Assembly: GCA_030526485.1 (NCBI GenBank)
Contig: JAUNCS010000021.1
Location: 1 to 34,767, forward strand
Direction of reading: 5' to 3'
DNA from: Erysipelotrichaceae bacterium
GTDB taxonomy: Bacteria > Bacillota_I > Bacilli_A > Erysipelotrichales > Erysipelotrichaceae
Length of the DNA stretch: 34,767 nucleotides
The translations under genes were made by a program, and so were the position numbers. The notes beneath the pieces are model-generated. The model was not told where the DNA came from and made no database searches. It saw nothing but the letters and a program-made list of their open reading frames with translations. Position 1 is the stretch's first letter; each line of letters opens with the position of its first letter. Below, one piece after another: positions 33,267 through 34,767 of the stretch.

Positions 33267-34583
33267 ATGAAAAATGCATTACAAAGACTAGTTTCTATTC
33301 AAAAAGAAGGCAAGGCTGTTGGCATCTATTCTGCCTGTTCAGCTAATCCTTTCGTAATTGAAGCAGTATTAAGAAAAGGTAAAGAAGACAACAGTTGTGT
33401 TCTAATTGAATCAACAGCTAATCAGTGTGACCAGTTTGGTGGTTATACTGGTATGACTCCAAAAGATTTCAGAGATTTCGTATATTCTATCGCTGATGAA
33501 ATCGGCTTTGATAAAAACAGAATCTTCTTAGGTGGCGACCACCTTGGTCCTCTTACTTGGACTTCATTAAGTGAAGAAGACGCTCTAAAGAACGCTACAG
33601 ACCTGATCAAGGCTTATGTAGGTGCTGGTTTCACTAAGATTCACTTAGATACCTCAATGAAAGTAGCTACTGATGATCCAAATGTCAGACTATCTGATGA
33701 AATCATCTCTAAAAGAGGTGCTATGTTATGTAAGGTAGCTGAAGAAACTTATGCTGAACTATTAAAGGAAAATCCAGATGCAGTTGAACCAGTATATATC
33801 GTTGGTTCAGAAGTACCAATCCCTGGTGGTTCTCAATCTGCTGTTGATGAAGGTGTTCAGGTAACTAAGGTTGAAGACTTCAAGGCTACTATGGAAGCAT
33901 TCAAAGAAGCATTCAAGAATGAAGGTCTTGAAAGTGTTTGGGAAAGAGTATTAGCGGTTGTTGTTCAGCCAGGTGTTGAAGAAAAAGACTCAGGCTGTAC
34001 TGAATATGATAGAGAAAAGGCTAAGCACTTAGCTGCAGCTATCAAGGAAATCCCTGATATCGTATTTGAAGGCCACTCTACTGATTACCAGACAAAGATC
34101 AAATTAAGAGAAATGGTTGAAGATGGCGTAGCTATCCTAAAGGTTGGTCCTGGTCTTACATTTGCTGCCAGAGAAGGTTTATATGCCCTGTCATTTATTG
34201 AAGATGAAATGTGCAAGATCAATGGCTTGACTCCTTCAAACTTCAGAGATGTACTAGATGCTGAAATGTTAAAGAACGACAAGAACTGGAAGAAGCACTA
34301 CCATGGTACTGCTGATGAAATCGCTCTTAAGAGAAAGTATTCATTCTCAGACAGATCTAGATATTACTACACTACTGAGGCTGTAGAAAAAGCAATCAAT
34401 ACTATGATGGAAAATCTAAAGGATGGTTGCCAGTTAAATCTTCTATCACAGTTTATGCCAATCCAGTACACTAAGGTTAGAGAAGGTTCTTTAAAGAACG
34501 ATCCTAAGGAACTTGTACTAGATAGAGTTGGTAATACTATTGATGAATATCTATACGCTACTCATCAAAGCGAACTATTCTAA
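33267..34583 (+). CDS. kbaZ: KbaZ/GatZ-type tagatose-1,6-bisphosphate aldolase subunit
   Basis: 438 aa from the ATG at 33267 with AGAGG nine bases upstream. Family members (GatZ, KbaZ/AgaZ) are needed for full activity and stability of the class II tagatose-bisphosphate aldolase GatY/KbaY; they were once annotated as tagatose-6-phosphate kinases. Motifs: VGIYSACSANPFVIEAVL, LIESTANQCDQFGGYTGM, FLGGDHLGPLTW, HLDTSMKV, IVGSEVPIPGGS, FEGHSTDYQ and KVGPGLTFAAREGLYALS. It is full length. The catalytic partner is not in the window and a group II intron end begins about four bases past the stop, so any following operon genes are displaced. Some relatives have other epimerase-type activities, so the function is inferred from context. 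Confidence 0.9.
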   Translation: MKNALQRLVSIQKEGKAVGIYSACSANPFVIEAVLRKGKEDNSCVLIESTANQCDQFGGYTGMTPKDFRDFVYSIADEIGFDKNRIFLGGDHLGPLTWTSLSEEDALKNATDLIKAYVGAGFTKIHLDTSMKVATDDPNVRLSDEIISKRGAMLCKVAEETYAELLKENPDAVEPVYIVGSEVPIPGGSQSAVDEGVQVTKVEDFKATMEAFKEAFKNEGLESVWERVLAVVVQPGVEEKDSGCTEYDREKAKHLAAAIKEIPDIVFEGHSTDYQTKIKLREMVEDGVAILKVGPGLTFAAREGLYALSFIEDEMCKINGLTPSNFRDVLDAEMLKNDKNWKKHYHGTADEIALKRKYSFSDRSRYYYTTEAVEKAINTMMENLKDGCQLNLLSQFMPIQYTKVREGSLKNDPKELVLDRVGNTIDEYLYATHQSELF

Positions 34584-34586
34584 TAA

Positions 34587-34767
34587 ATAGAGTAGAGGGA
34601 GATTTTAAATAATCTCGCCCCTCTCATTGCACCGTACGTACGGGTCTCGTATACGGCGCTACATTTATATTTAAGTCACAAATTACTTAGCCAAGTAATA
34701 TTCAAGGGGATTAACCGATAGTGTAAATTAATCTGTGTAAGTTAGTTAAGAGCGTACGGCTTAGCTG
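34587..34767 (-). mobile_element. 3' end of a group II intron (domains V and VI), antisense to kbaZ, 5' part outside the window
   Basis: Read on the minus strand. Domain V is at about 34629-34660: lower stem GCGCCGTA/TACGGTGC after an AGC triad, upper stem TACG/CGTA, and the two-base CG bulge, the standard layout. Domain VI is at about 34590-34627: a long stem whose base pairs GAG with CTC and leaves one bulged A (complement of 34593), the branch point. The intron would end AT at 34587, seven bases from that A. Upstream, 34661-34767 looks like domain IV and holds a seven-base hairpin (34682-34699). I cannot identify a reverse transcriptase end; an 18-codon open stretch runs from the edge to a stop at 34711-34713 but matches nothing I know. 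Confidence 0.85.

Follow-up and report, generated by a model that had tools for sequence, protein, structure and literature searches.

Group IIC intron 3' end antisense to kbaZ, three bases behind its stop codon and interrupted by an IS256-type element, in an Erysipelotrichaceae genome

Why should the tail of a group II intron, read on the opposite strand, all but touch the stop codon of an intact gene? The question arises at the right end of a 34,767-nucleotide stretch of Erysipelotrichaceae DNA (the window), which is the entire contig C62 of a 1.95-Mb assembly in 72 contigs. The following features define the locus.

33267–34583, plus strand: intact kbaZ/gatZ-like gene (open reading frame [ORF]; PF08013, E 1.3e-177)
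34587–34716, minus strand: 130-nt 3' portion retained from a group IIC intron (RF00029 match; 92% identity to the copy on contig C67; junction from 77 flanks)
34590–34625, minus strand: domain VI, with a bulged branch A at 34593
34629–34659, minus strand: domain V, with the catalytic triad CGC at 34658–34656
34683–34715, minus strand: final ten codons, with the stop, of the reverse transcriptase (RT) that the intron encodes, VNPLEYYLAK-stop, truncated by an insertion sequence (IS)
34717–34767, plus strand: end of a Mutator/IS256-type IS inside the intron, with the contig stopping within the IS (same end on C11 and at other contig ends)

The initial annotation had placed a group II intron 3' end on the minus strand right behind the kbaZ stop, and the covariance-model search that it proposed bears this out: Rfam model RF00029 gave a full-length match to 34587–34661 of the minus strand (41.5 bits, gathering threshold 40; E 5.1e-5). 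The fold suggested for domains V and VI stands in its outline, including a branch A seven bases from the intron 3' end, but the GAAA loop that is canonical for domain V is missing. The catalytic triad, described earlier as AGC, is C34658-G34657-C34656 on the minus strand; the AGC letters sit one helix step too early. A CGC triad is typical of group IIC introns. The 3' splice junction was placed by 77 distinct 3' flanks, in which divergence starts straight after the intron end, so that the intron's final base is 34587 and the junction falls between 34587 and 34586; the first 3'-exon base is T in 73 of these flanks. Because the kbaZ stop (TAA, 34581–34583) is followed by a second in-frame TAA (34584–34586), the junction lies exactly 3 bases past the stop, a slight correction to the about four bases first given for an adjacency that is otherwise correct.

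When the last 208 bases of the window were compared with their own genome by BLAST, they resolved into two separate repeats. Positions 34588–34708 recur on C67 at 92% identity, and 34582–34636 recur at the end of contig C36; the last 51 bases (GATAGTGTAAATTAATCTGTGTAAG...) are found on C12, C71, C43, C11, C60 and C50, beside unrelated DNA and mostly at contig ends. Since 34588–34708 and the last 51 bases recur separately, the intron extends only to 34716, and from 34717 the sequence belongs to an IS256-type element; the range originally assigned to the intron, 34587–34767, therefore holds for its first 130 bases, and the remainder is IS. On C11 this IS end (GATAGTGTAA) adjoins a Mutator-family transposase gene (Transposase_mut, PF00872, E 5e-60), which together with its many copies likens the element to the IS256/Mutator family, as judged from the one end per copy that is visible in the assembly. 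Copies of this multi-copy IS account for breaks in the assembly at many ends of contigs. The peptide encoded just inside the IS boundary resembles the RT C-terminus of intact relatives (GLVNPLEYYL, GLVNPLEYYLSYS, GLVNPLAYYLR), and on this sequence evidence the IS interrupts the intron's RT gene ten codons ahead of its end. As the contig ends inside the IS, the 5' half and the 5' exon of this copy lie off the contig.

The element is ordinary in kind and belongs to an already-known type, group IIC or bacterial class C, exemplified by B.h.I1, GsI-IIC and the 7uim intron, with which it shares the CGC triad, a short domain V and a 3' exon beginning with T. There is no difference in kind, only that the copy beside kbaZ is broken by an IS and visible at its 3' end alone. 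With a covariance model trained on five copies, among them the one beside kbaZ, the same structure was found in 92 sequence stretches, and by this model such introns occur in 9 of 36 genomes of the genus and in 94 of 272 genomes of the family (28 of 59 genera). In an alignment of 48 distinct copies, 98% of cells were paired and there were 56 two-sided changes where shuffles averaged 20, counts biased towards the model to which the alignment was fitted; together with the RF00029 score, they identify the domain V and VI structure, with its bulged A, as that of a group II intron. Of 47 distinct copies, 45 have CGC as their domain V triad and two have UGC. Intact relatives are 1922–1925 nt long and start with GTGTGCCGGGCATGG. 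Their protein contains RVT_1 and GIIM domains only and matches group IIC enzymes best (the maturase of PDB 7uim, E 1e-106; GsI-IIC RT 6ar1, E 8e-98), with LtrA far behind at E 1e-41.

Class C introns insert behind intrinsic terminators (PMC4424553; PMC8919778). The intact relatives resemble this class both in their RT and in their placement: in all 15 copies that could be read across both junctions, the 5' exon closes with a strong terminator-like hairpin 0–7 nt before the 5' junction, followed by a short, mostly U-rich tail. Numbers can be high, with 10–15 IIC introns in each of five single genomes (G172, G202, G105, G067 and G199). At locus L057 (G004:C37), the 3' exon from position 139 onward (TGTGTGCCGGGCATGGC) resembles an intron 5' end, and two IIC introns seemingly lie back to back. 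At locus L076 (G013:C179, 494–534), a domain V-like stub passes into CCCGAATTCGGGATAACACCAC, possibly as a deletion product or a misassembly.

Three further contigs of the same genome carry parts of such introns. C67 holds one whole but decayed intron of 891 nt, inserted directly behind a hairpin with GGGTTTTTAT (T-tract), with RT remnants (tblastn E 9e-26) and a borderline match to domains I–IV (RF02001, 31.0 bits versus 32, E 0.011); a long opposite-strand ORF after its 3' end runs into the intron. C36 terminates 50 bases into an intron 3' end that runs antisense to a gene of the HIT family; intron sequence supplies the TAG stop of this gene, and the first 50 intron bases are identical to the copy beside kbaZ. 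C46 opens 50 bases inside an intact-looking intron 5' end (GTGTGTCGGGCATGACAC..., reading GTGTGTCGGGCATG), which sits behind a hairpin (GCACTTCGTTATGAAGTGC) with its long T-run on the other strand. C36 and C46 may be the two sides of one copy, in which case the HIT gene formerly ended in a TAA at that position and still encodes an unaltered protein. Gene order tied C46 to neither kbaZ nor the HIT gene; in the genus, no RloB, AAA, RbfA or IF-2 homologue was found beside the latter. A weak match on C37 (E 0.0025) was rejected, as comparison with intact introns or their RT did not support it. Directly before the intron 5' end on C46, and after rbfA, an RloB-like gene (PF13707) and an AAA_21 ATPase gene occupy 102–1987 of the minus strand (L206). 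Such a combination is the kind of pair known from defence islands.

Could the intron beside kbaZ be an old 3' remnant that is no longer mobile, its domains I–IV missing beyond the IS? The decay of the C67 copy would fit such a history, as would the outcome of RVT_1 and TIGR04416 searches, which found no RT gene of the intron's kind in the assembly and thus place the intact element outside it. However, the domain V and VI pairs of the kbaZ-side copy are intact and its RT tail is open. Together with the identical 50 bases on C36 and the intact-looking 5' end on C46, these features indicate that near-intact copies existed recently, and we regard an old remnant as unlikely. Intact copies are presumably present in this genome and were lost as unassembled repeats.

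Instead, the locus is very probably the product of a group IIC intron that inserted antisense at the kbaZ terminator hairpin and whose RT gene was later interrupted by an IS256-type element. A mobile intron would have entered the minus strand at the hairpin after kbaZ, which would then form its 5' side, much as hairpins do for the C67 copy and the 15 intact relatives. On this reading, the intron 3' end came to rest right behind the stop because the hairpin began a few bases from the kbaZ stop and the intron went in just beyond it, again by a few bases, on the opposite strand. The kbaZ protein is unchanged, but the terminator would now be on the intron's far side, and kbaZ would have lost it as a neighbour. 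In a later step, the IS entered the last codons of the RT gene; the kbaZ-side copy can thus no longer make the normal protein and, its RT gene being cut, is probably immobile on its own. We infer that this copy is inactive, and that any splicing or movement would take the help of another copy as well as an RNA that still folds.

The surroundings of kbaZ in other genomes are consistent with this insertion. A scan of named genomes showed its closest relatives, 70–74% identical, to be in Erysipelotrichaceae and other Firmicutes metagenome bins, which makes this the most likely group of the host, and because the best of them reaches only 74%, the exact empty site was not obtained. As a stand-in, kbaZ of L143 has a hairpin at most 10 bases from its first TAA, and in several of the closest relatives (L141, L143, L145 and L152) a hairpin and then a convergent gene follow kbaZ, though some more distant ones (L157 and L018) have a same-strand gene there. 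The suggestion that the intron puts distance between kbaZ and a downstream aldolase or kinase gene therefore finds no support. Two other early claims agree with the data: the kbaZ coding sequence is left intact, its ORF being complete to the first TAA, and the intron, by its orientation, would be unspliceable from kbaZ mRNA.

The arrangement beside kbaZ would follow more generally from insertion at gene ends, because IIC introns target terminators, which are often common to convergent genes. We counted opposite-strand ORFs of at least 100 codons in the 77 distinct 3' flanks. Such an ORF has its end among the 25 nt beside the junction in 15 flanks, compared with about two in each 25-nt bin at greater distance. 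In another 17 flanks it enters the intron and halts at built-in stops, the three antisense frames of the intron 3' end each reaching a stop codon within 26 nt; these 17 alone are no sign of a gene end, because any junction-crossing ORF must stop there. When the empty site was restored by joining the flanks, the ORF was longer in L101, L104 and C67 and ended at the same or nearly the same place (within 2 residues) in L110, L114 and L115. HIT genes of most relatives in the genus have a hairpin that overlaps the stop or comes just after it.

From these flanks one might go further and propose that an IIC intron landing between convergent genes as a rule re-caps the gene on the other strand and moves its terminator about 2 kb away, with this gene gaining a long transcript antisense to the intron and the domain VI end possibly selected for mildness. 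Re-capped genes do often keep the protein C-terminus, as in L110, L114 and L115 and, if C36 and C46 are one copy, in the HIT gene (TAA to TAG), but we hold such a general rule to be quite improbable. Still less credible is that the antisense domain VI region was recruited as a new transcription terminator and 3' end for kbaZ. The sense RNA of this region does form a stem of about −13.6 kcal/mol, yet the bases after it are CATTGCAC, which hold no T run, and a simple scan of 34450–34767 returned no terminator-like site. The stem needs no second role because domain VI must fold anyway, and the initial view that this dyad supplies the kbaZ 3' end does not survive. A chance antisense insertion, merely coincidentally close to a stop codon, could appeal to the fact that an opposite-strand ORF ends at the junction in only 32 of the 77 flanks and hence by no rule, but it is highly improbable given the roughly sevenfold excess of such ends at the junction over farther bins and the presence, or near presence, of the arrangement at all three intron 3' ends of this genome.

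If a group IIC intron inserted at the kbaZ terminator hairpin as proposed, the known targeting rule accounts for the striking layout of an intron tail that lies antisense and touches a stop codon. The case also makes plain why contigs from short reads stop in elements of this sort. The tally, across the family, of opposite-strand genes whose ends meet the 3' junction makes a small, testable addition to what is known of IIC introns and their convergent neighbours.
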